From contig CANGYA010000008.1 in NCBI GenBank assembly GCA_947457925.1, forward strand, positions 1 through 51,096: a stretch of DNA of 51,096 nt. The letters are read 5' to 3'. Positions 8,426 through 47,034 of the stretch are shown in pieces. The notes under the pieces are model-generated. The model had not been told where the DNA came from and searched no databases. It saw nothing but the letters and a program-made list of their open reading frames with translations. Within the stretch, counting starts at the first letter, position 1, and every line of letters begins with the position of its first letter. This DNA comes from Cytophagales bacterium (GTDB lineage Bacteria; Bacteroidota; Bacteroidia; Cytophagales; Thermoflexibacteraceae). Both the position numbers and the translations under genes were made by a program.

Positions 8426-10747
8426 ATGTTTTTTCGTGTGTTGTTTTTTGTGGGCTGTTGTTGGGGACTGTTATTCAAACAGCAAGGGTATGCACAAACC
8501 AATAAAATAGATAGTGTATTGCAGACACTCAGTAAACTACCACAAGATACCAATAGAGTAAATAGCTATCTGTATTTAGGGGCAAGTTATCAAAACTCAG
8601 AGGTAAAGAAAGCCGAAGACTATTTACAACAAGGTTTATTGTTAGCCCTACAACTTCGCTATAAAAAAGGAGAAGGGTTAGCTTTGTACCGAAAAGGCTT
8701 AATTGCTTGGCGAAAAAACCAGTTTAAAATCGCAGACAGCCTGAATCAAACAGCTTTGCAACTATTTGAAAAACAAAAACTTATCTTAGAAATTATAGAT
8801 TGCCATACCACCGCAGGTAGTATTCAGCTATCGCAGGGGAATTATGTAGAGGCTCTAAAATGGTATCTCAAAGTTTTAAAAAATACCGAGCAACTCAAAG
8901 ATGAAGTACGTTTAGCTATTCTTTACAATAACATAGGCTTGGTTTATAAAAATCAAAATAATTTTGATGAGGCTCTTGTGTATTTCCAAAAGGCTTTTGT
9001 GATTAATGAAAAACGCCAAGACGTTGCTATGACTATCAGTTTGAATAATATGGGCTTGATAGAATATGAAAGAAAGAACTTTCATAAAGCCATTAGTTTT
9101 TATCAAAAAGCCTTGCAGTTTAATGAAAAGAAAAACAACCAACGTAGTATAGCCCTGAATACCAACAATATAGCTAATGCGTATTTAGGTTTAGAGTTGC
9201 CCAATGACGCATTGCCGTATATCCGCAGAAGCATTGCTATTAATCAAAATCTGAAACAACAAAACCCCCTTAACTATTCTTCTTTGGCAAAAACCTATAA
9301 TTTATTAGGCAAAACCGACTCCGCCTTATTTTATTTTCATTATGCTTTGCAACTATCCAAAAGTGCAAATACACGCAAATTGAGCCAACAGATTTATAGA
9401 GATTTGTCTGTGGCACATAAAAGCTACTTGCGTTTTGACTCTGCTTTACACTATAAAGATTTGGAAACACGCCTAAAAGATATTTTACTGAGTGAAGAAA
9501 GTGTTGCACAAATAACCAATTTACAAAGCAACTATGAAATAGTACAACAACAAAATAAAATAGCTCTCTTAGAAAAAGACAATGCTATTAACCAACTGAA
9601 AATTTATGAGCAGACTTGGAAAACCAAACAAAATACCAATCAAATCATGCTTTTACAAAAAGAAAACGAGTTGAAGGAAGCAGCTATTATTCAAAATAGG
9701 ACAGAGGCAGAAAAGCAAAAAATTAATACTGAAAAGCAAACAGCTCAAATCCAATTACTTACACAACAGAAAGAATTAAATAAAATAGAGAGTGAAAAAA
9801 GACAGCTTATTCAAAACATCACGTTTTTAGTTATTGTATTTGTGTTTTTAGGCTTAATTGGTTTGAGTATTGGCTATTACCAAAAACGTAAGGCTAACTT
9901 ACTCTTAGCAACCCAAAAAGATGAGATTAGCCAACAAGCAGAGGAGTTGAAGGCTGCAAATCATGTGATTGAAGTAAAAAATCATAATATTTTGGCAAGT
10001 ATTAATTATGCCCAACGCATACAACAAGCTATGTTGCCTTTGCCTAATAGATTTGATGAGGTTTTTGGCGAAGACAATACTTTTATTTTATTTATGCCTA
10101 AAGATATTGTAAGTGGTGATTTTTATTGGCTGCATGAATTGGAGAATGGCGAGGTGTTAGTAGGTGTAATAGACTGTACAGGGCATGGTGTACCGGGGGC
10201 TTTTATGAGTATGATAGCCAACCAACTACTTTTTGATATTGTAGAAAAGCAAGAAATTACAGAAGTAGCCGAAATTTTGAATGTACTGCAAAAAGATATT
10301 CAAAAGACATTGAAGCAAGATACAACCAATAACCATGACGGCATGGACGTGGTACTATGTAAAATAGACCAAAGAAATCAAAAAGTTTATTATGCAGGAG
10401 CTATGAATCCTTTGTATTATATTCAAAATCAAGAACTTATAGAAATAAAAGGTAGTAGATTGGCGATTGGTGGGATACAACGAGTAGGAGAAGAGTTTAT
10501 TCAAAGAATTATAGATATACAAGTACCTACGACTTTGTACCTATTTACAGACGGTTACAAAGACCAAATTGGTGGAGTTAAAAAGGAAAAAATTATGGCA
10601 CGTAGATTTAAACAACTATTACTTAACAATCATCAAAAGAGTATGGCTGAACAGAAAGATTTATTGCTACAACATTTTTACCAATGGAAAAAAGACGGAC
10701 AACGTACACAAATAGACGATGTTTTAGTGGTAGGCATTCAGTTGTAA
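8426..10747 (+). CDS. TPR sensor with SpoIIE-type PP2C phosphatase domain
   Basis: 773 aa. Signal peptide 1-24 (ending GYAQ), periplasmic TPR array ~30-360 (e.g. AILYNNIGLVYKNQNNFDEA, SLNNMGLIEYERKNFHKAIS), a long coiled coil ~360-460, one membrane helix ~464-487 (FLVIVFVFLGLIGLSIGYY), a short coiled linker, and a cytoplasmic SpoIIE/PP2C phosphatase at ~550-773. Phosphatase motifs: DIVSGDFYW, VIDCTGHGVPGAFMS (metal-binding Asp), DGMDVVLC, YAGAMNPLYY, LFTDGYKDQIGG and DDVLVVG; all key acidic residues are present. Likely senses something in the periplasm and dephosphorylates a STAS protein such as 7810-8199. A paralogue with the same layout, but interrupted, lies at 18703-20838. Confidence 0.9.
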   Translation: MFFRVLFFVGCCWGLLFKQQGYAQTNKIDSVLQTLSKLPQDTNRVNSYLYLGASYQNSEVKKAEDYLQQGLLLALQLRYKKGEGLALYRKGLIAWRKNQFKIADSLNQTALQLFEKQKLILEIIDCHTTAGSIQLSQGNYVEALKWYLKVLKNTEQLKDEVRLAILYNNIGLVYKNQNNFDEALVYFQKAFVINEKRQDVAMTISLNNMGLIEYERKNFHKAISFYQKALQFNEKKNNQRSIALNTNNIANAYLGLELPNDALPYIRRSIAINQNLKQQNPLNYSSLAKTYNLLGKTDSALFYFHYALQLSKSANTRKLSQQIYRDLSVAHKSYLRFDSALHYKDLETRLKDILLSEESVAQITNLQSNYEIVQQQNKIALLEKDNAINQLKIYEQTWKTKQNTNQIMLLQKENELKEAAIIQNRTEAEKQKINTEKQTAQIQLLTQQKELNKIESEKRQLIQNITFLVIVFVFLGLIGLSIGYYQKRKANLLLATQKDEISQQAEELKAANHVIEVKNHNILASINYAQRIQQAMLPLPNRFDEVFGEDNTFILFMPKDIVSGDFYWLHELENGEVLVGVIDCTGHGVPGAFMSMIANQLLFDIVEKQEITEVAEILNVLQKDIQKTLKQDTTNNHDGMDVVLCKIDQRNQKVYYAGAMNPLYYIQNQELIEIKGSRLAIGGIQRVGEEFIQRIIDIQVPTTLYLFTDGYKDQIGGVKKEKIMARRFKQLLLNNHQKSMAEQKDLLLQHFYQWKKDGQRTQIDDVLVVGIQL

Positions 10748-17437: not shown

Positions 17438-18673
17438 CTAATACTTTTCTGTAATCACAATGCTTTTACTATCATCTATCAACGTAGTTGCAAATAAATA
17501 TGCCTCTCCTCCGTCTTTTAGCCCTGTTTTTTTGCGGATTTCCTCCACAGATAGCGGAAAATTGCGGACAGTAATGTTGGCTTTTTCGCTGCGTAATTGG
17601 TGTGCCAAAACTTTTTTGTCTAATTTACAATAACCTTTAATCTCAAAAATTCTACCTGTAAAATCTGTATGTAATTCGTTAGAAGTGTAAAGGTGCGAAT
17701 GTAAATGTAATTTTTTCAAGTTGTAATGAGCAGCAATACTTTTAAATGCACCAGCTTTTAGCACAGCTACATTGGGTTCATACAAATACAACAAAGGAAA
17801 ATCATAATGTACCTCTGCATTTTTTTCGGCATTATGCAAAAAACTAAAATCTTGTGTAATAGTATTTTTTTGAATATTAACCGTAGTAATTTTTATATTT
17901 TCTGGTGTTTGTCTGTTAAAGTCTAAAATAAACAACAATTCTTTACATTCATTGTCCACAGCTACTACAGCTACTTCTTGCAGGTTGGGTAGTTGCTCCA
18001 TAGCCAAATGAATGTCCAAAATTGGAGATAATTTTAAGAGTACAATTTGTGTTTTTGATTTTATTAAAGGTAAGATTTCCAATAAATTAGGCTCACAATC
18101 TCTCAAATGAAAAACTTTTTGATGTTGTTGATTACGGCGGGCAGGGTCTAAATAAATAAAGTCTAATTTTTCATCATGTTGCTGTAAAAAATCAATAGCA
18201 TTTTGATTAATAACTCTAATATTTTTAGTTTGAAACAAATTAAAATTATATTCTACTACAGAAGTTACTTCACTTTGTTGTTCTACATACAAAAACTGTT
18301 CGCAATTTTGAGCTAAATAATGCGCATCTACCCCAAAACCTCCCGTAAGGTCGGCAGCTTTGTAATGGAGTGTAGAAATTGTATTTTTCAAATAAGTATT
18401 CAACCAATTTGCTTTCCATTGGGCAGTATTTTCAGATGAACACTGTTCCATAGACAACAAAGGTGGATAAATTACTGTTGAATTAGCAAACCACATTGGC
18501 AGTTTTGTTTTTGCTTTTTGCCTTGCTTTTAATTGGTTTATAGCCAAAGGAACATCTATTGCAGGAAATTTATTGGCTTGTAAAGCTAAGGAATGAAAAT
18601 CGGTAAGAGCTTGGTTTGCTAACAAAAAGGCTTGAAAATCAGGGGTTAATACAGTTTCTATAACGGTTTTCAT
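17438..18673 (-). CDS. SAM-dependent methyltransferase with THUMP-like domain
   Basis: 411 aa, cytoplasmic. An N-terminal helical part (residues 1-90: FHSLALQANKFPAIDVPLAI, QLKARQKAKTKLPMWF) precedes a Rossmann methyltransferase core: motif I ADLTGGFGVDAHYLA at ~107-121, acidic loop YVEQQ, and motif IV FIYLDPARR at ~172-180, typical of RNA-modifying enzymes. The C-terminal ~100 residues (LKAGAFKSIAAHYNLKKLHL, AHQLRSEKANITVRNFP) match the THUMP-like domain of this Bacteroidota family. Target RNA unknown. Starts 30 nt after the interrupted SpoIIE gene on the same strand, possibly one transcript. Confidence 0.82.
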   Translation of the reverse strand: MKTVIETVLTPDFQAFLLANQALTDFHSLALQANKFPAIDVPLAINQLKARQKAKTKLPMWFANSTVIYPPLLSMEQCSSENTAQWKANWLNTYLKNTISTLHYKAADLTGGFGVDAHYLAQNCEQFLYVEQQSEVTSVVEYNFNLFQTKNIRVINQNAIDFLQQHDEKLDFIYLDPARRNQQHQKVFHLRDCEPNLLEILPLIKSKTQIVLLKLSPILDIHLAMEQLPNLQEVAVVAVDNECKELLFILDFNRQTPENIKITTVNIQKNTITQDFSFLHNAEKNAEVHYDFPLLYLYEPNVAVLKAGAFKSIAAHYNLKKLHLHSHLYTSNELHTDFTGRIFEIKGYCKLDKKVLAHQLRSEKANITVRNFPLSVEEIRKKTGLKDGGEAYLFATTLIDDSKSIVITEKY

Positions 18674-18702: not shown

Positions 18703-20838
18703 TTATTTCAGTTTCGTCCCCACCAACAACATATCATCAACTTGTTCTTCGTATCCCTGCCATTCGTTCAAGTAGCCCTCTAACAAAAATTGCTGTGCGT
18801 GAATAGGTTGCAAGGCTATCTGTTCCAAATAGCTTTTTAGGCGTTTCACCATTAACTTTCGCCCTTTTTCACCACCAAACTGGTCTTGAATACCGTCTGA
18901 ACACAAATATAAATACAGATGACTCACCGCTCAAGCATCTATTGGTAAGGTATGTTTTGTAAATTGAAAATCCTCTTTTATATCAGACAACAAGCCCCCA
19001 ATAGGCACTTTGTCTGCCTTAATTTCTACTAATTCTGTGGCAAAATTATTATCACTTTCAAAAATTTTTACCAAAAAGATAGGATTCATAGCCCCTGCAA
19101 ATTCCAACTGCGTGAACACTCCGTCTTTACGCGTAAGTGTAACGACAGATATGTCCATACCATCTGTACTTTTGCTGGTATCTTGGTGTAAAATATTCTG
19201 AATATTTTTATTTAATCTTCGTAAAATCACATTTGGGGCAGAAAAACCTTCATGAATAATCAAATCATTCAGTTGGTTCAAACCAATCATCGTAAGCAAA
19301 GCACCTGGTACGCCATGCCCTGTGCAATCTGCCACAGCCAAGATAATTTTTTCACTTTTATCTCTGCGGTCTTGTAGCTGTGTGATGTAATAAAAATCAC
19401 CTGAAACTATATCTCTTGGTCGATAAAAAATAAAACTTTCTGGCAATAACTGTTGAAAATCTGCCTGACGTGGCAATAGTGCCAACTGGATATTTCGGGC
19501 ATACTCTATACTGTCTGTAATATCTTTATTTTTATGATACAATTCTTGTTGGTTTTTTTCCAATTCACTGTGCTGTCTATTCAATAAATCTAATGTGGTC
19601 TGTAACTCCTCATAACTTTTGTTCAACTCTACATTAAGTTCTTCCGTTTGTTGTGTCTTAATTTGCAACTCCATTTGTTGGCGTTTAATGGCTTCATTTT
19701 GCAAATGTAGAGTCTGGTTTACTTTTCGTTTTTGCCTATTACTTAACCACAACAGCACCGCAACCACTACCAAAGAAAGTACACCTAATAAAATAATGAT
19801 AATCAACCAATTTCTTTGTTGCAGTTGGTGTTCTCTCACCTCACTTTCTTTATTGAGCAACTCTATTTCTTTTTCTTTTTTATGGTTGTCGTATTTTGCC
19901 TGCATTTCTGCTATAACTTGCGACTGGGTTTCAGTAAAAATTTTTTGTAAAGAGTCATGGTAAAAATCTAAATATTTATAGGCATTTTTGTAGTCATTCA
20001 TGGCTGCATAGTCTTTAGCCAAACGACCATAAGTGTTTCTAAAAGTTTCTTTATCTTGTATTTTAGTGGCTAAATCCACAGCTTTTAGGCGAAGTGCTAT
20101 GGCTTTTTTATAGTCGCCTTTAGCCGTATAAATATTAGCTATGTTGTTGAGATAGAAGCCTGTATGTTCTTCTGAATCTGTTTCTAAGGTAATAGCTATT
20201 GCTTTTTCATAGTAGGCTACAGCCTTTTCATAGTCTTTCAGGTAATTCGTATAGACATTACCCAAATTATTTGATAAAACCTTGATACCTACTCTAATTT
20301 TCTTTTTTTCACAAATAGCCAAAGCATCTAAATAATACTTTAATGCAATTTCCCACTGCTTAGTTTTTTCATAAATATTTCCTAAATTATTGTAGGTTTG
20401 TGCTATTCCTGTGCTATCTTTTTCTTGTTTGGCTAATAATAATCCTTCTTTAAGATACTTTGCTGCCAATTTGTAAGAGGCAGTAGAAGTATAGGCATTG
20501 CCTAAGTCATTACAAAATCTCCTTCTTAGTTTAGTAACTTTGGTGTGTTCCAAACCTAATAGAGCAAACGCAATAGTTTTATCAAACTCCGACCTACGTT
20601 GATAGATATTTACTAAAACAGCATAAATGGTGGCTTTTTCTTCTGAGTTATTGGCAACAGCTAAGGTTTGTTCGGCTAATTTAATAGCAAAATCTGGCAG
20701 AGAGTCTTGGATTTGGTCTATTTTTTCTATATAGTGGCTCACAGAATCTGGCATTACCACTGTAGTTTGTGCAAATGCCATGAACTTGCAACAACAGAGT
20801 AAACACCAGATAGAGAGATATTGGGCAGCTTTCAACAT
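18703..20838 (-). pseudogene. TPR-SpoIIE phosphatase interrupted by an in-frame TGA
   Basis: Same layout as 8426-10747. From the ATG at 20838: signal peptide (MLKAAQYLSIWCLLCC...AFAQ), TPR units ~40-300 (AKYLKEGLLLAKQEKDSTGI, NNLGNVYTNYLKDYEKAVAY), a membrane helix ~341-362, coiled coil, then a SpoIIE domain (DIVSGDFYYI, AVADCTGHGVPGALLT, DGMDISVVTL, FAGAMNPIFL). The frame stops at TGA 18931-18933 just before the last conserved block. After one more codon (GCG) a GTG at 18925-18927 in the same frame opens 74 codons that supply the rest: YLYLCSDGIQDQFGG and VDDMLLVGTKL. One nonsense change therefore splits an otherwise complete gene. The larger piece lacks the SDG aspartate needed for metal binding and should be inactive, unless read-through occurs or the TGA is a sequencing error. 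Confidence 0.8.
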
Positions 20839-28643: not shown

Positions 28644-29939
28644 ATGCAGCAACATCACTTTACTATCATAGTTCCTACAAGAGAAAGAGCAGACACTTTA
28701 TATTGGACTCTCAGAACATTAGTAGCTCAAGACTATGAAAACTTAACTATTTTGGTTTCAGATAATTATAGTCAAGATAATACAAAGGAAGTGGTTGATT
28801 CTTTTCAAGATAAACGTATAAAATATGTGAATACTGGAAAACGTGTGGAAATGGCTTTAAATTGGGAGTTTGCTCTTAGCCATGTCAAAGAAGGATATGT
28901 GGGGTTTTTAGGAGATGACGATGGCTATTTACTTGGGTCAATTAAATTAATCAACTACTTAATTAACAAATATCCAACTCAAGCAATTACATGGAAAATG
29001 GCTAGTTATGGCTGGCCTAACTTAGACTATGAAAATTATAACAATGCGTTTGGATATTCTTTTGGCAATACAGTGTTCTATAAGAATAGTATTAAAGAAT
29101 TAAATTATTTAGAAAAAAATTATCATGATTTTTATCATACTCTTTTCAATATGTACCCTAATGGTGTTGTTTCTATAGATGTTATTAATAGACTAAAAGG
29201 AAAAAACAATAGGTTTTTTAATGCTTGTGCACCAGATATTTATTCAGCCATAGCTATTACAAAGGAATTATCTACATTCTTATATACAGATATTTGCTTA
29301 AGTATGTCTGGTACTTCTAAGAAAAGTAATAGTGGTAGTAGTTTAGGAGCTAATGCACACTCGAACTCACAAAATTTAGAACTCAATAAATTTTTTACAG
29401 AGCTGAAAGAAATGCCTTTGTATCCTAAGCTACCTCGAGAATTAGACGTTTTACTAGTGGCAATAGCTGATGCCTATATTAATATGGAAATTCATACTCT
29501 TGGTTATTCTCCAAGTGAACAAAAGTGGTTAAAAATTGTCATTGATAAATCATTAAAAAAATTTGAAACAGGTACAAATAATAATGATTTATTTGAGAGC
29601 AAACTTATAGAGTTGGCAGAGCATGTTAATATGGGAAGTCAGATTAGGAACAAAATAGCAAAAATCAAACGTAAACGAATAGACAAACCTACTCAACAAA
29701 ATGATGATGTTGTTGTATCGGGCTTAATAGATAAAGATAGCCTACGTTTTGAATATAAGGCTGATTTTTTAGGTGTCAAAAATATATATGATGCAGCCTC
29801 CTTTGTAAGCTACTATTTAAGTATGACTAATTACGACCATCACCGAATAAATTTTATTAAAGCACCCTATTATAATAAATTTTACTCACGAGTAATCTCT
29901 TTTATAGATAGGCACTGGAAACGTCTTATTAGTGAATAA
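28644..29939 (+). CDS. GT2-family glycosyltransferase
   Basis: 431 aa. GT-A fold start FTIIVPTRERADTLYWTLRT with the nucleotide-sugar Asp region ILVSDNYSQDNTKEV (~35-50), then GYVGFLGDDDGYL, where DDD provides the DxD metal/UDP-sugar site (~90-97). The C-terminal ~250 residues are unlike common GT2 enzymes and give no recognisable domain. No membrane helices, so it acts at the cytoplasmic side of the membrane. Clearly more AT-rich than the genes before 28.3 kb. Starts a new transcription unit after a gap with a MITE-like element and hairpin. Donor and acceptor unknown. Confidence 0.83.
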   Translation: MQQHHFTIIVPTRERADTLYWTLRTLVAQDYENLTILVSDNYSQDNTKEVVDSFQDKRIKYVNTGKRVEMALNWEFALSHVKEGYVGFLGDDDGYLLGSIKLINYLINKYPTQAITWKMASYGWPNLDYENYNNAFGYSFGNTVFYKNSIKELNYLEKNYHDFYHTLFNMYPNGVVSIDVINRLKGKNNRFFNACAPDIYSAIAITKELSTFLYTDICLSMSGTSKKSNSGSSLGANAHSNSQNLELNKFFTELKEMPLYPKLPRELDVLLVAIADAYINMEIHTLGYSPSEQKWLKIVIDKSLKKFETGTNNNDLFESKLIELAEHVNMGSQIRNKIAKIKRKRIDKPTQQNDDVVVSGLIDKDSLRFEYKADFLGVKNIYDAASFVSYYLSMTNYDHHRINFIKAPYYNKFYSRVISFIDRHWKRLISE

Positions 29940-30344
29940 GTGGTTGGCTAATGGTCAAAATGTATGATTGTCTAATTGACTGATAAGCAATTATTTGAAG
30001 AAAAATGATTATATAGAAGCTCACCGTTTTTTGGTTTATCGGTGACTATTCACCAAATATGTGTGCTATAAGTTATTCATAATCAAGCATTTAATTACCA
30101 TATATTTTTACCTCTACCAGTAATATTTATTGTTAAGTACAAGTAACTAATTAATTGACAATATTGTACCATCAATATTAGTCCATTTATTTTTCAATTA
30201 CTTACAAATATTTACTTTACAATAGAGTTTATAAATAGTTTTTTCTTATGACCTCATACTGCCTCTCCATTTGGAGAGGGTTCTATGGAATTATTCATAA
30301 ACTCTAATTATTTTTACTATTAAAAAATATTCTTTTTGCTCAAA
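29940..30344. other. AT-rich intergenic gap between two glycosyltransferases
   Basis: 405 nt without a credible gene. The only structured part is the MITE-like element 30223-30306. The rest is AT-rich with scattered short reverse-complementary words and no convincing promoter. Confidence 0.5.
30223..30306. mobile_element. MITE-like palindromic element, 84 nt
   Basis: Terminal inverted repeats TAGAGTTTATAAATA (30223-30237) and TATTCATAAACTCTA (30292-30306), one mismatch, enclosing a GC-richer hairpin CCTCTCC-ATTT-GGAGAGG (30262-30279) that stands out from the AT-rich surroundings. No coding capacity. Confidence 0.5.
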
Positions 30345-31634
30345 ATGAATAAAAACATACTCCATATTACTCATAGTTTTTTCCCAAATAGAGGCTGGTC
30401 TGAAACCCTAATTGTGCCTATATTAAAAAACCATACAAATAGTTATAATACTTACCTAATTACATTATCAACTGAGGACTCTTTTATTCAGTATGAAGGT
30501 ATAAATGTTTATACAATTAAGTATCAAGATAATATTTCACTCATTTATGAAAAATTCTTAAATATATTAAACGAGATAAAACCAAATCTTATATTATTCC
30601 ATTGCTATAATATCTTAGCTGAGATAAACTTAGTACACACCATCAGGAATAGTTACAAGAATATTAGAATTTTATTCATGTACCACCACCCAAGTGTTAC
30701 GTGTTTGCGGGGCGACTTAATACAATATGGGGAGAAAGTTTGCGATGGCAAGGTAGCTCCTAATAAATGTACCTCTTGTTTTGCTCACTATTTGGGTTTA
30801 CCAAAAATCTTATCTCAGTCATTGGCATATATGCCATCTACAAAAAAAAAAATCAAAGGCATACCTAATGTAATAAACACAATTATTACATTAAAAAGTA
30901 GTGTAGAAAATACTATAAAAAATAAAATTATTTTTTATAAATCATTAGATTATATTATTACTCTCAATGAATGGTCAAAAAAACAGCTTGTATTAAATGA
31001 TATTGCCCTTGAAAACATCATAACTATACCTATAGCACTTCCTATATCAAATATAGAGGAGGATAATCTTCCTATACCAACACCAACAATTCAAGAGGCT
31101 AATTATCTGAAACTTATCTATGTAGGTAGATTGTCAAAAGAAAAAGGAGTACATAATGTCATACAAGCCATTAGCCAACTCAATGACCAATGTAAAATAC
31201 TATTTGATGTATATGGAGTCTATGGAAATGATACAAAATATAATGATTATTTAACAAAAACTATAGAGAAAGTAGATGGTGTTTTCTACAAAGGAATACT
31301 AAATGATAAGTTAGTAGTAAAAACAATGATGCAATATGACATTGTAATAGTATCATCTATTACAAGTGAAACGGGGCCTCTTACAGTTTTAGAAGGATTT
31401 GCTGCCCATAAATTTGTACTTGGTACGAATGTAAATGGTATTAATGAAATGATTGAAGACGGCAAAAATGGTTACTTAGTAAACTTTAATGATGTTAATG
31501 ATTGGAAAAATAAAATATTAAAAATTTATCGTGATAAAACCTTTTACACCAACAAGGAAATTTCATTACCCCAAAAACGCATCTTTTTAAATTTTATTAA
31601 TGAATTAAATAATTTTATTAATAAAATAATATAA
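30345..31634 (+). CDS. GT4-family glycosyltransferase
   Basis: 429 aa from the ATG at 30345 (a TTG three codons upstream is less likely). Two Rossmann domains of GT-B type. N-terminal part: ILHITHSFFPNRGWSE, a cysteine cluster near 120-150 (VTCLRGDL, KVCDGKVAPNKCTSC) common in surface polysaccharide GT4 enzymes. C-terminal part: LIYVGRLSKEKGVHNVIQAI near 258-277 and the donor site EGFAAHKFVLGTNVNGINEM with the E-x7-E motif region near 347-370. Retaining glycosyltransferase of a cell-surface glycan, cytoplasmic face. Very AT-rich (many ATA and AAT codons), like its neighbours. Confidence 0.87.
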   Translation: MNKNILHITHSFFPNRGWSETLIVPILKNHTNSYNTYLITLSTEDSFIQYEGINVYTIKYQDNISLIYEKFLNILNEIKPNLILFHCYNILAEINLVHTIRNSYKNIRILFMYHHPSVTCLRGDLIQYGEKVCDGKVAPNKCTSCFAHYLGLPKILSQSLAYMPSTKKKIKGIPNVINTIITLKSSVENTIKNKIIFYKSLDYIITLNEWSKKQLVLNDIALENIITIPIALPISNIEEDNLPIPTPTIQEANYLKLIYVGRLSKEKGVHNVIQAISQLNDQCKILFDVYGVYGNDTKYNDYLTKTIEKVDGVFYKGILNDKLVVKTMMQYDIVIVSSITSETGPLTVLEGFAAHKFVLGTNVNGINEMIEDGKNGYLVNFNDVNDWKNKILKIYRDKTFYTNKEISLPQKRIFLNFINELNNFINKII

Positions 31635-42216: not shown

Positions 42217-45200
42217 CTAATTCTCCCCTCTCAAAACCTGTATCCAACCCTTACAAGATTTTCCTTCGGGAGAAGTGAGGTAGTAATAGTACAAGGCAGA
42301 AGACGTATCTTCGCCCCATTCGCCATTGTAGTTGTCGTTTTTATAGATTAGTTTTCCCCAACGGTCATAAATCTCCAATTTCCAGCCTTCTCGTACATTG
42401 TCTATCACAAATCTTTCATTTTTGCCATCTCCGTTAGGGGTAATGACGTTGGCAGGTTTTATGTTTTCCACCTTTATTTTTTGGCTCACCGTTTTGCTAC
42501 ACAAATCACTCATAGCCTCTAAAATCACTTCATATTCTCCCGATTTTTCGTAAGAAAATTCGGCAGGAGGCGTATCAAAAACATCTTTGCCATTGCCTAC
42601 AGTCCATTTGAATTTGTCTGCCCCTGTAGATTTGTTAATAAACCGAACTACGCCATTTTTGCCACATTCAGAAGCTACTTGCACCTCAAAAGCTGGTTTT
42701 ATTTCTGGCACGACTTCAACCCTTACGGCACTGTCCACAAAACAGCCTCTTTCATTAAAAATCCGCACATTGTACGTAGTAGCCACCGTAGGCGAGGCTA
42801 CAGGATTGCCAATGTTCGGGTTGCTAAGTCCTGTGGCGGGTGTCCACAAATACCTTGCTCCACCTGTAGCCGAAAGTTGTATGGAGGCAGCATTACAGAT
42901 AGTCGAGTTTCTTGGCGAAATGCGAATGCCTCTGTAAAAATCTGCTGCTACGATACGGCGTTGTGGCGAAATTTGGCTGTTGCTGCGGGTACAGTTGGTA
43001 TTTGTACCTGTAACTTTGATTTCAAAATCTCCATCTCTGTCATATTTGAAAGGCGGTGGTTGTATGCCCGCAAAAGTACGCCCATCTCCAAAACTCCACA
43101 CATAGCTGTCTGCCCCACTCACTCGGCTGACAATGCGTGTAATAGGGTAAGGCTCACACAAAGAGTCGTATTCTATCGTGAAATCTAAGTTAATACGTGG
43201 CGTAACTTCTACCGTAACTACAGTGTCTTTGAAACAGTTAGCATTGGCGAAAATCCGCACTCTGTACGTAGTAGTTACTTCTGGGCTTGCCGAAACAGTG
43301 GCGGTATTCGTAGCACTTAGCCCTGTGGCTGGCGACCATTGGTAGGTACTGCCACCTGTGGCGGTTAATCGGGCTGTTTCGCCATTACATATTTTTTGTG
43401 TAGGTGAAACAGAGATTCTTTGTTCAAATCCTGCCTCTGTATTTTCCCTAATATCCACAAAAGTAGAATCCCTACGAGTACAACTTTGGTTCGTGGCTAC
43501 CAATACGATTTTGTAACGACCTGCTACTGTATATTTAAACGGCGGAGGTGTAGCCAAAGTAGAAGTTTGTCCATTGCCAAAATCCCACAGGTACGTGAGT
43601 CCGCCTGTACTATTGTTGGTCAATGTTACCAAAGGAAATCTTGCACACAAATCTGATAATTCTGCCGTAAAACTTGGGTTTACTCTTGGCGATACATTAA
43701 TCGTAACGGCTGTATCTGTAAAACAAACATTATTAGCTATTCTCACCCGATACGTAGTCGTTTGTGTAGGCGTAGCTATGGGGTTGGCTATATTCGCAGC
43801 ACTTAGCCCTGTGGCAGGTGTCCAAGTGTACCTCGTCCCTCCCGAAGCCGTTAGTTGCACAACATCTCCCAAACAAATAGCAGCATTAGGCGATATTTGT
43901 GGGACAATTCCGTTGGCATTGCGTTTAATTTCTACGATTTGTGTGGTGCTTGCCTCGCATTGTTGCCCTCTGAATAAGGTAAGGCGAATAGTATAAGTGC
44001 CTTCTGCCGTATATTTAAAGGCTGGCGGATTAGCAACCGTAGCCGTTTGTCCATTGCCAAAATCCCAAAAATAGGTAGCTTCATTCGCAGGTACTACAGA
44101 ACTTGTATTCCGAATATTGATAAGTGGGAAAGTAGCACACGAATCTGTCAAACTCACTGTAAACTCTGGTCTGGCGGTGCGTACATTTACCGTAGTCGTC
44201 AAACTACTATTACACACACCATCAGAAATACGAACTGTGTAGGTGGTTGTAGTGGTAGGTGAAGCTATGGGATTAGCTATATTCGTGGCACTTAGCCCTG
44301 TGGAAGGAGTCCATTGGTACGTAGTGCCTCCCGAAGCCGTTAATTGTGTGCTTGCCCCCTGACAAATTGTAACATTATTAGATAGTGCAAATGTAGTGTT
44401 ACGAATATTGATGGTACGACTTATCGTTTGAGGGGTCAAACAAAAAGCATCATTAAAGCCCGTTAGAGAGAAAGTATAATTACCGCCTTGTGTAATGGTG
44501 AATGTAGGCTCTGCGTCTGTAGAAGTACCTAAAGTGCCTAAATTCCACTGAAAACGAGTGGCGTTGGTGGAGTTATTGCGTAGGCGTACCGTTACTGGTG
44601 CACAGAGAGAAGCCGTAATAGGTGTGCCTGTTGCCACGTCTATAGGTGTAAAGTCTGCTCTTAATAGTTCTTCTAAACTAATCTTAAATGCCAAATTATT
44701 ACAAGCATTGGACGGAGCTGGGGCAGCTAAATTGGAGGTTTGCCATGCCCCTGCGGTAGCTGGAAAGTTATTACTACGGCACACACACGCAGAATGGTAA
44801 ATTACCCCTTTTTTACTAAAACGACAAGTACCGCCATCTACGTGGTCGCCGTCTGCTGCACTACCTCCCCCCAAAAAAGTAGCATATAAGAGTTGTGTAG
44901 CATTTTTGCCTAAGACCATCATATAAAAATCATCTCCATCAGTAGTTCTTCTTAGGGCATCTCCTGTTGTTGGTAGTCCTGTTGTGGAGAGAGTAATACC
45001 TGTAGTAGCTGCGTTTGTACTGCCTCCCCAACCTGCCAAATAAATATTCTCACAATCACTGACCATAAAAGCCGTTGGCGTAATACTTGGGGCTAAAGAA
45101 TTAGCACTGCCTATTTGGGTAGAAAAAATACGAGTGGTCAAATTATTATCTAATTTGTAAATAAAATGCCCACCATTTACATTGTTGTAAGTACCTGCTG

Positions 45201-47034
45201 TAATAGGGTGTATGCCTCTGGTATTACCCAATACATAGACATTGCCCGCATTGTCTAAATCTATGAAATAAGTTTGGTCATATTGTGCTGTGCCTATGTA
45301 TGTACCTGTTAAAAATGTACCCGTGGGGCTGAATTTTTGTATAAAACCATCTACACCTCCTCTAAATGCAGGTTGTAAAGCCGTGCCTCCCGTAGCTAAA
45401 TTATTACTTGTTGTAGCTCCTACTACATAAATATTACCTGTGGCATCAGTCCGAATACCATGTGCAGCATCTTCGCCTGTTCCGCCAATATACGCCCCCC
45501 AAGTCATGGCACTAAGGTCTGCATTCATACGAAAAGCTACGGCATCTTGTGAACCACCAAAGGGAGCTCCGCCATTACCTCCATTGAAAGTTGGGAAATT
45601 ATTTGAACGGGTATAACTTGCCACATACACATTGCCCGCCGCATCTGTATAAACCTCGCCTCTTGCCTCATCTCCATAATTTTGAGCTAATGGGTAAATA
45701 GTTGGAAAATTAGGTACACCCACATAACCATCATTACCACCTCCACCAACATAAGTAGAAGCTACTAAAGACGTACCTGTTGAATTGAGAATAGTTACGA
45801 AAATATCTGAACCAAAAGGAAATTCGATAGAATAATTCGAAAAATTTGTACCTGCATTGAAAGTTCTGTCAAAGGCATTTGAAGACGTTGGAAAATTAAA
45901 AGAACCTGTAACCCCTTCTATCACCAAATTGCCAGCATTGTTTACAATCATAGAACTTGGTAGTTCCGATTCTAAACCACCCAAAAAAGTGGCATATAAC
46001 AAGTTGCTGCCTGTTGGGTTAAATTTCATCACAGAAACGTCCCAAGCTGTATTATGTGTAACATCAAAAGCTCCAACTGTAGCAGGAAATTGCTGACCAA
46101 ACACGATACCCGCAGCATATAAATTTTCGGCATTGTCAAACGTAGCCGAAAAGCCCCAATTATCCGAAACACTACCCGAATAAGACGAAAAAACCAGTGT
46201 AGGGTCTATGATTAGTTCATATTGAGGATTGTAACCTTGCGGAAATTCATAGCTTAATTGGTTATTTTCCAACTTAAACCTCGACGGTACTTCTACTTTT
46301 TGTCCATTGATAAATTGGTAAGAATAAGGGTGTTGTTCTATAAACTCATTGATAGAAGTCTGTATTTTCAAATTGCCATTTTCTAAGGTTACAGTTTCTG
46401 CACCGTTGTAGTTCATGCGAATTTGTTGCGGATTGGCATAAGGAGCAACAATGAAGTCATATTTAAGTGCTTCTTCTTGGGTATAAAATTTCAGTTGAAT
46501 CCCTTTATATAATTCATTGTAAACCACTTCGTTATAGCCTCTTACATTGCTTGCCCATTTGTCGGGTGAAGAATTAAAAAAGTAGTTGTAATACTCTGTA
46601 GTAGGTTGATGAGGCAATAATTGAGGCGAAGTATTTGCCCCTACAAATTGTACTTCTACGCCATGCCCTCGTATTTCTCCGTTATGCGAAGGGTGATGAC
46701 TATGCCCAAAATTTTCTACTTTGGCAGCTTCGGGCAATAAATGTTTGTGATTGGTTTGTTTACTCATCAAGGCATTTGCGTCATAAAAACCATACACCAA
46801 TGCGTTTTCTTTTAAAAACAAAAAACCATTCGGAATGTCGGCTCTGTATCGCACAGACTTGTCCCATTGGTTTTTATTCTCGATAAACTTGTATTGTTTA
46901 TTAACTTCGGGCAATTCACGAGGTAGTTGGCGAGGCGGTTTGCCCTGCGGAACTTTTGGCGTAAAAGCCATTGTACTGTTTGTCAATGCTATTAAAAAAC
47001 AGACAGCATACCATTTTACAAGGAGTCGTATCAT
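42217..47034 (-). CDS. Giant surface protein with SBBP, PKD repeats and T9SS type B sorting domain
   Basis: 1605 aa. Signal peptide (~1-23). An N-terminal DUF7948-like domain follows (YKFIENKNQWDKSVRYRADI; VEVQFVGANTSPQLLPH; LKYDFIVAPYANPQQIRMNY) to ~270. Then a beta-propeller of SBBP-type repeats ~275-800 (YAAGIVFGQQFPAT, GNVYVASYTRSNNFP, NIYVVGATTSNNL, NIYLAGWGGSTN). From ~815 come five PKD-like domains (YFWDFGNGQT, YLWDFGNGQT, YVWSFGDGRT) alternating with four Ig-like units of the form ICxG..QLTASGG, YxWTPATGLS, SPTxTTTY. The end, ITPNGDGKNERFVIDNV through IYDRWGKLIYKND and YYYLTSPEGKSCKGWIQVLR, is the gliding-motility-associated C-terminal (type B) domain that directs export and surface attachment through T9SS. 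Adhesin or mechanical role inferred. Confidence 0.92.
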   Translation of the reverse strand: MIRLLVKWYAVCFLIALTNSTMAFTPKVPQGKPPRQLPRELPEVNKQYKFIENKNQWDKSVRYRADIPNGFLFLKENALVYGFYDANALMSKQTNHKHLLPEAAKVENFGHSHHPSHNGEIRGHGVEVQFVGANTSPQLLPHQPTTEYYNYFFNSSPDKWASNVRGYNEVVYNELYKGIQLKFYTQEEALKYDFIVAPYANPQQIRMNYNGAETVTLENGNLKIQTSINEFIEQHPYSYQFINGQKVEVPSRFKLENNQLSYEFPQGYNPQYELIIDPTLVFSSYSGSVSDNWGFSATFDNAENLYAAGIVFGQQFPATVGAFDVTHNTAWDVSVMKFNPTGSNLLYATFLGGLESELPSSMIVNNAGNLVIEGVTGSFNFPTSSNAFDRTFNAGTNFSNYSIEFPFGSDIFVTILNSTGTSLVASTYVGGGGNDGYVGVPNFPTIYPLAQNYGDEARGEVYTDAAGNVYVASYTRSNNFPTFNGGNGGAPFGGSQDAVAFRMNADLSAMTWGAYIGGTGEDAAHGIRTDATGNIYVVGATTSNNLATGGTALQPAFRGGVDGFIQKFSPTGTFLTGTYIGTAQYDQTYFIDLDNAGNVYVLGNTRGIHPITAGTYNNVNGGHFIYKLDNNLTTRIFSTQIGSANSLAPSITPTAFMVSDCENIYLAGWGGSTNAATTGITLSTTGLPTTGDALRRTTDGDDFYMMVLGKNATQLLYATFLGGGSAADGDHVDGGTCRFSKKGVIYHSACVCRSNNFPATAGAWQTSNLAAPAPSNACNNLAFKISLEELLRADFTPIDVATGTPITASLCAPVTVRLRNNSTNATRFQWNLGTLGTSTDAEPTFTITQGGNYTFSLTGFNDAFCLTPQTISRTINIRNTTFALSNNVTICQGASTQLTASGGTTYQWTPSTGLSATNIANPIASPTTTTTYTVRISDGVCNSSLTTTVNVRTARPEFTVSLTDSCATFPLINIRNTSSVVPANEATYFWDFGNGQTATVANPPAFKYTAEGTYTIRLTLFRGQQCEASTTQIVEIKRNANGIVPQISPNAAICLGDVVQLTASGGTRYTWTPATGLSAANIANPIATPTQTTTYRVRIANNVCFTDTAVTINVSPRVNPSFTAELSDLCARFPLVTLTNNSTGGLTYLWDFGNGQTSTLATPPPFKYTVAGRYKIVLVATNQSCTRRDSTFVDIRENTEAGFEQRISVSPTQKICNGETARLTATGGSTYQWSPATGLSATNTATVSASPEVTTTYRVRIFANANCFKDTVVTVEVTPRINLDFTIEYDSLCEPYPITRIVSRVSGADSYVWSFGDGRTFAGIQPPPFKYDRDGDFEIKVTGTNTNCTRSNSQISPQRRIVAADFYRGIRISPRNSTICNAASIQLSATGGARYLWTPATGLSNPNIGNPVASPTVATTYNVRIFNERGCFVDSAVRVEVVPEIKPAFEVQVASECGKNGVVRFINKSTGADKFKWTVGNGKDVFDTPPAEFSYEKSGEYEVILEAMSDLCSKTVSQKIKVENIKPANVITPNGDGKNERFVIDNVREGWKLEIYDRWGKLIYKNDNYNGEWGEDTSSALYYYYLTSPEGKSCKGWIQVLRGEN

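Follow-up and report, generated by a model that had tools for sequence, protein, structure and literature searches.

A gene on the minus strand, predicted to encode a tetratricopeptide repeat (TPR) protein with one probable membrane segment and a C-terminal SpoIIE-type phosphatase domain, is interrupted by a single in-frame TGA. The best reading of this stop is a recent nonsense mutation or a strain polymorphism, which would probably leave a dead phosphatase; an error in the draft assembly ranks second. The window, i.e. the whole stretch of DNA analysed here, comprises 51,096 nucleotides of contig CANGYA010000008.1 (positions 1 to 51,096; Cytophagales bacterium, assembly GCA_947457925.1).

A single stop in an otherwise open frame

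According to the sequence and the reading of its open frames, the minus-strand frame that begins with the ATG at 20838 stays open for 635 codons until the TGA at 18933-18931 (Table 1). The same frame resumes past the TGA for 75 codons and ends with the TAA at 18705-18703. The TGA is the sole stop between these two points and represents codon 636 of a 711-codon frame. The sequence-only reading had described the frame as intact up to this TGA, and its coordinates and description proved correct. The SDG and VDDMLLVG motifs that it placed past the stop in the same frame are located there as well (Asp codons at 18897-18895 and 18738-18733), and the GTG two codons past the TGA, from which a 74-aa piece was thought possible, lies at 18927-18925 with 74 codons following. 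The signal peptide, the coil and the transmembrane segment of the upstream product were read by eye. Given the base composition of the downstream stretch itself, the probability of 75 stop-free codons is about 0.0035. Because of this value and the alignment with the paralogues, the continued frame is not a matter of chance.

A small insertion or mobile element bringing the TGA was considered and set aside: allowing up to 3 mismatches, the 22-base context has no second copy in the genome. A small in-frame insertion may have occurred but is not needed to explain the stop. The loop length at the stop is within the paralogue range, at its upper end, by a pattern that missed 20 of 81 rows. As for a compensating frameshift pair around the stop, YLCSDG was seen by eye in the original frame, while the turn was unalignable.

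Table 1. Positions in the window of the interrupted gene, its parts and the related genes
Feature	Position	Strand	Remarks
Intact TPR-SpoIIE paralogue, 773 aa, 26% identical	8426..10747	+	Pfam TPR and SpoIIE
Next gene, THUMP-like / PG_1098 family protein	17438..18673	-	29 bases past the TAA, same strand
In-frame continuation, 75 codons, with YLCSDGIQDQFGG and VDDMLLVG	18706..18930	-	TAA at 18703-18705
SpoIIE (PF07228) match across the TGA	18718..19353	-	1.6e-11, 45.7 bits, profile 3-188 of 192, 1 TGA inside
Two Asp codons of VDD, absent from truncated product	18733..18738	-	Invariant columns D261 and D262, alignment A1
Asp codon of SDG, absent from truncated product	18895..18897	-	Invariant column D208, alignment A1
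GTG, second codon past the TGA; possible putative restart, 74 codons to end	18925..18927	-	
In-frame TGA	18931..18933	-	22-base context unique in genome allowing up to 3 mismatches
Upstream open frame, 635 codons	18934..20838	-	Signal-peptide-like start and TPRs, then one probable transmembrane segment, a coiled stretch and the initial two thirds of a SpoIIE/PP2C domain
Probable transmembrane segment, about residues 344-366	19740..19810	-	Read by eye
TPR repeats, residues 146-263	20050..20403	-	Pfam TPR_12, 8.9e-25

The stop removes the last core of the phosphatase domain

By its PF07228 domain the gene is assigned to the SpoIIE/PP2C (PPM) family. Read through the TGA, the domain scored 45.7 bits, above the curated cut-off of 25; the upstream part alone gave 28.3 bits (2e-6, residues 496-588). 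The domain was modelled with AlphaFold2 from an alignment of 27 sequences, with Trp at the TGA (271 residues, mean pLDDT 94.4). In this model the stop codon is residue 196, between the strand 189-192 and the strand 200-206. In 78 aligned domains of the same genome, which include the stop-bearing gene (3 of 81 were dropped), the stop site is a variable-length turn before the SDG strand.

Among solved structures, the PP2C domain of SiaA from Pseudomonas aeruginosa (PDB 6k4e) is the closest relative and has the SpoIIE/PP2C fold and its motifs in common with this gene (profile match 2.2e-55, positions 2-245 of 247; Foldseek TM 0.79 to the read-through model). The matched domain of SiaA is complete, whereas here a TPR sensor is combined with a stop inside the domain; the sensor part of SiaA presumably differs from that of this gene. 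The Bacillus subtilis SpoIIE (PDB 5ucg) also carries a PP2C domain, with a structural match of TM 0.59-0.60 to the same model (Foldseek). Unlike this gene, it is described with ten transmembrane segments and another regulatory domain (PMC5468089). A literature search on SpoIIE with tetratricopeptide, Bacteroidetes and phosphatase gave no match.

The residues lost were then read from alignment A1, which holds the stop-bearing gene and 26 copies hand-chosen from the 80 fetched. Ten of its 28 invariant columns fall past the stop, including D208, D261 and D262, while D41 (SGDF) and D64 (DCTGHG) precede it. In B. subtilis SpoIIE, D628, D746 and D795 are described as putative metal-coordinating side chains (PMC5468089). 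By comparison with that protein, the aspartates of this gene would have a metal-site role, and by motif order the lost D208 and D261/D262 may be equated with D746 and D795, respectively. The truncated product is without the full set of putative metal-site aspartates, which is complete only if the codon is read through, and it should be phosphatase-inactive. The restart product would retain the last aspartates with the rest of the domain gone, and presumably could not be a phosphatase by itself.

An independent function of the truncated protein, for instance as a non-catalytic TPR scaffold, is very unlikely, whether alone or together with the 74-residue restart product. The TPR part is complete by Pfam, the membrane segment is retained as judged by eye, and a GTG lies two codons past the stop. 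However, the truncation interrupts the domain itself, separating two core strands, and does not coincide with a domain border, and the 75-codon downstream piece alone matched no Pfam family at E <= 0.001.

The stop is unique among the SpoIIE copies

The genome holds 83 SpoIIE matches, just 1 of which has an interior stop; none of the 95 matches in the sister species has one. The 13 genomes of the family, own included, contain 17 to 95 SpoIIE matches each, and no further stop appeared among the matches listed for them, which for the other 11 genomes are mostly the stronger ones. The SpoIIE family is extremely expanded in this group, with 83 matches in 4.9 Mb here and 83-95 in the relatives G001 (the sister species), G002, G003 and G005, and 17-66 in the other eight family genomes searched.

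Besides the paralogue at 8426, a closer copy was found at C31:4601-6145, with 37% identity over 511 residues (aligned to residues 122-632). No interior stop was flagged in either, unlike in the stop-bearing gene. The paralogue at 8426 is thus intact, as the sequence-only reading had stated, but the suggestion that it might compensate has little basis, because it is only 26% identical and one of 83 matches; a special compensation is not indicated by these comparisons. Widespread interruption was also considered and rejected. Stops were flagged in 2 of 43 HATPase_c matches (TAG and TAA), and each is the last residue of its match and looks like a normal end of the protein.

No close orthologue found at the locus or elsewhere in the genomes searched

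A comparison with the closest relatives had been proposed by the sequence-only reading. It was run at both protein and DNA level, and a close orthologue was not found. At protein level the genus was searched in 2 genomes, own included, and the relatives from the sister species had only 32-38% identity (E <= 1e-60, best 150 of 222 candidates). The DNA search of 29 genomes, own included, gave matches in 20 of them, which outside the own locus were only short pieces. In the 28 relatives the best piece was 149 bases at 74% (10 candidates scored per genome, among the matches listed). A scan of a genome contig collection gave 7 loci with a best identity of 31% and no close orthologue; the best named match in it was Thermoflexibacter ruber (31% identity).

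The THUMP-like neighbour is present in 10 of 12 genomes, own included. The 3.5-4.2 kb loci around it in the nine other genomes contained no orthologue of the phosphatase gene, and the 14 kb surrounding it in the sister species were likewise free of TPR-SpoIIE matches at 1e-5. The other side of the THUMP-like gene is occupied in G005 by a TPR relative (25% identity). In the sister species this neighbour (G001:C45:81947-83230) matched as two overlapping pieces (L144 and L145) within one 467-aa open frame, and a single alignment across this frame takes 441 columns for the 409 residues of the query. Compared with the copy in the window, the neighbour thus appears to contain an internal insertion.

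Elsewhere in the window, two glycosyltransferase genes at 28644-31634 (+; Glycos_transf_2 and Glycos_transf_1) are possibly part of a surface polysaccharide cluster. A 1605-aa protein with a DUF7948 domain, PKD repeats and a CHU_C type IX secretion signal domain is encoded at 42217-47034 (-).

No sign of decay in the downstream part

The two parts of the domain were compared by leave-one-out profile scores among the SpoIIE copies of the same genome, with ranks counted from the bottom. The part past the TGA ranked 33 of 77 (87.7 bits vs a median of 92.8), and the catalytic part before it ranked 10 of 78 (173.9 bits vs a median of 193.35). Among the copies with DQ[F/I][G/S], the ranks were 5 of 41 past the stop and 4 of 42 before it. 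The best identities to other copies were 50% past the stop and 48% before, reached with different copies. By these scores the copy appears divergent in both parts; against the close set its 3' part looks atypical, yet no worse than the 5' part. No sign of 3'-specific decay was seen in the 75 downstream codons. As the codons past the stop are as family-like as those before, any damage would be young. An undecayed 3' part is, however, expected equally from a very recent event, a draft error or efficient read-through.

A base-calling or assembly error would leave the gene intact in the cell. Such an error fits the undecayed 3' part, an assembly of 329 contigs at 96.93% completeness, and a lone stop in a family that is otherwise stop-free (1 of 83). 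Yet there is no visible excess of errors in the draft, as interior stops number 1 among the 83 SpoIIE matches and, by our reading, none among the 43 HATPase matches; single substitutions are also uncommon as consensus errors. A draft error is considered unlikely and ranks second.

Recoding and read-through of the TGA

The genome encodes RF2 (486.9 bits vs a cut-off of 370). The best selB match reached 194 bits, below the cut-off of 242.25, and the best tRNA-Sec match 39.9, below the cut-off of 47; similarly weak matches of both were obtained in 14 of 14 control genomes. ARAGORN called no tRNA with a UCA anticodon among the 42 tRNA matches listed (best 150 of 324 candidates). No gene was called in the weakest of these (L194), two tRNAs were called only with the intron option and their anticodons are unsure, and the set is incomplete, since tRNAs for Ala and Ile are missing from the calls. 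Folding of the 68 bases that start at the TGA was not better than that of shuffled sequences (z +0.74), and neither a stimulating nor a SECIS-like fold was seen.

Reading of the TGA as selenocysteine, or by a reassigned code, is nearly refuted by these results. TGA is indeed a rare terminator (3 of 36 hand-picked ORFs in the window). However, the SelB, tRNA-Sec and SECIS-like fold of a selenoprotein were each looked for and, judged from sequence matches and folding, do not appear to be present. As for a UGA-reassigned code, RF2 is retained, a UGA-reading tRNA was not called within the scope and with the unsure anticodons given above, and in place of many in-frame UGAs no other SpoIIE copy of the genome has an interior TGA.

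Two tRNA genes of the same genome, L189 (C115:11919-12037) and L191 (C47:6088-6206), matched RF00005 with 49.0 and 45.6 bits. By the ARAGORN intron option their anticodon loops contain inserts of 46 and 50 bases, and the stretch GGTCAAAYAAGATTTACTTCTATGCC is common to both inserts. Group I introns are far longer than these inserts. The common stretch had no exact match in the viral contig collection, and a 19-base part of it is absent from the window at up to 3 mismatches.

Tolerated or regulatory read-through, in which UGA is leaky and a few ribosomes complete an active phosphatase with a tuned dose, was judged rather improbable. In its favour, the turn that holds the TGA is variable and should accommodate many residues, and the 3' part is undecayed. 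One tRNA-Trp was called by ARAGORN; its anticodon is CCA, and the five pairs of its anticodon stem include a G-U pair at the top. In E. coli, an over-expressed tRNA-Trp variant with the top anticodon-stem pair opened is reported to raise UGA read-through about 2.5-fold (PMC13092985); an in vitro selection cited in the same source, on the other hand, found that opening the top pair alone had no effect, and the tRNA-Trp here keeps 5 pairs. Belinky et al. 2021 (PMC7918605) describe in-frame stops as widespread in bacteria and under purifying selection, and cite a read-through level of 6% for a catA86 TGA mutant in B. subtilis, both of which speak for read-through. Against it, the same source describes most bacterial in-frame stops as short-lived and cites a very low level of TGA decoding in E. 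coli. Moreover, RF2 is present, no stimulating RNA fold follows the TGA, and the other SpoIIE copies of this genome and the sister species are without interior stops.

A more specific version holds that a nonsense codon in a tolerant turn acts as a low-dose setting. Leaky decoding of UGA by a tRNA-Trp whose anticodon stem is weakly paired at the top would then yield a trickle of full-length phosphatase, and copies could be dialled down and restored by one change in a lineage with about 80 SpoIIE sensors. This version is improbable to a still higher degree. Dose-tuning by read-through is possible, but the data do not favour it over plain loss.

Interpretation

The sequence-only reading had named a recent event, a sequencing error and a tolerated read-through as its options, and the data fit this set. 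Recent loss or error is favoured by the undecayed 3' part, the interior stops in 1 of 83 and 0 of 95 copies and the recoding machinery not being found. Hence an ordinary gene-breaking change or a draft error, and not a new genetic mechanism, is most likely.

Under the preferred reading of a recent nonsense mutation, a redundant and lineage-specific TPR-membrane-SpoIIE phosphatase gene would have gained one nonsense codon recently, or the codon would be a strain polymorphism. Translation would stop after 635 of 711 codons and leave a TPR protein. Its PP2C-type domain, deprived of the final core strands and of the aspartates in SDG and DD, would have lost phosphatase activity. With 83 SpoIIE matches in the genome and no orthologue detected even in the sister species, the loss of this copy would be tolerated. 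We infer that the cell truly carries the TGA, that ribosomes terminate there efficiently, and that the product is inactive and dispensable. The case resembles those of Belinky et al. 2021 (PMC7918605) in that a single in-frame stop sits in an otherwise intact gene and is likely short-lived; the focus of that paper is on stops common to at least two species, whereas here the orthologue was not found.

The case matters chiefly for annotation, in which one interrupted gene should be recorded here and not two genes. The finding would matter more only if read-through were true. If the stop is real, the gene would be one example of copy loss from a heavily expanded sensor-phosphatase family.
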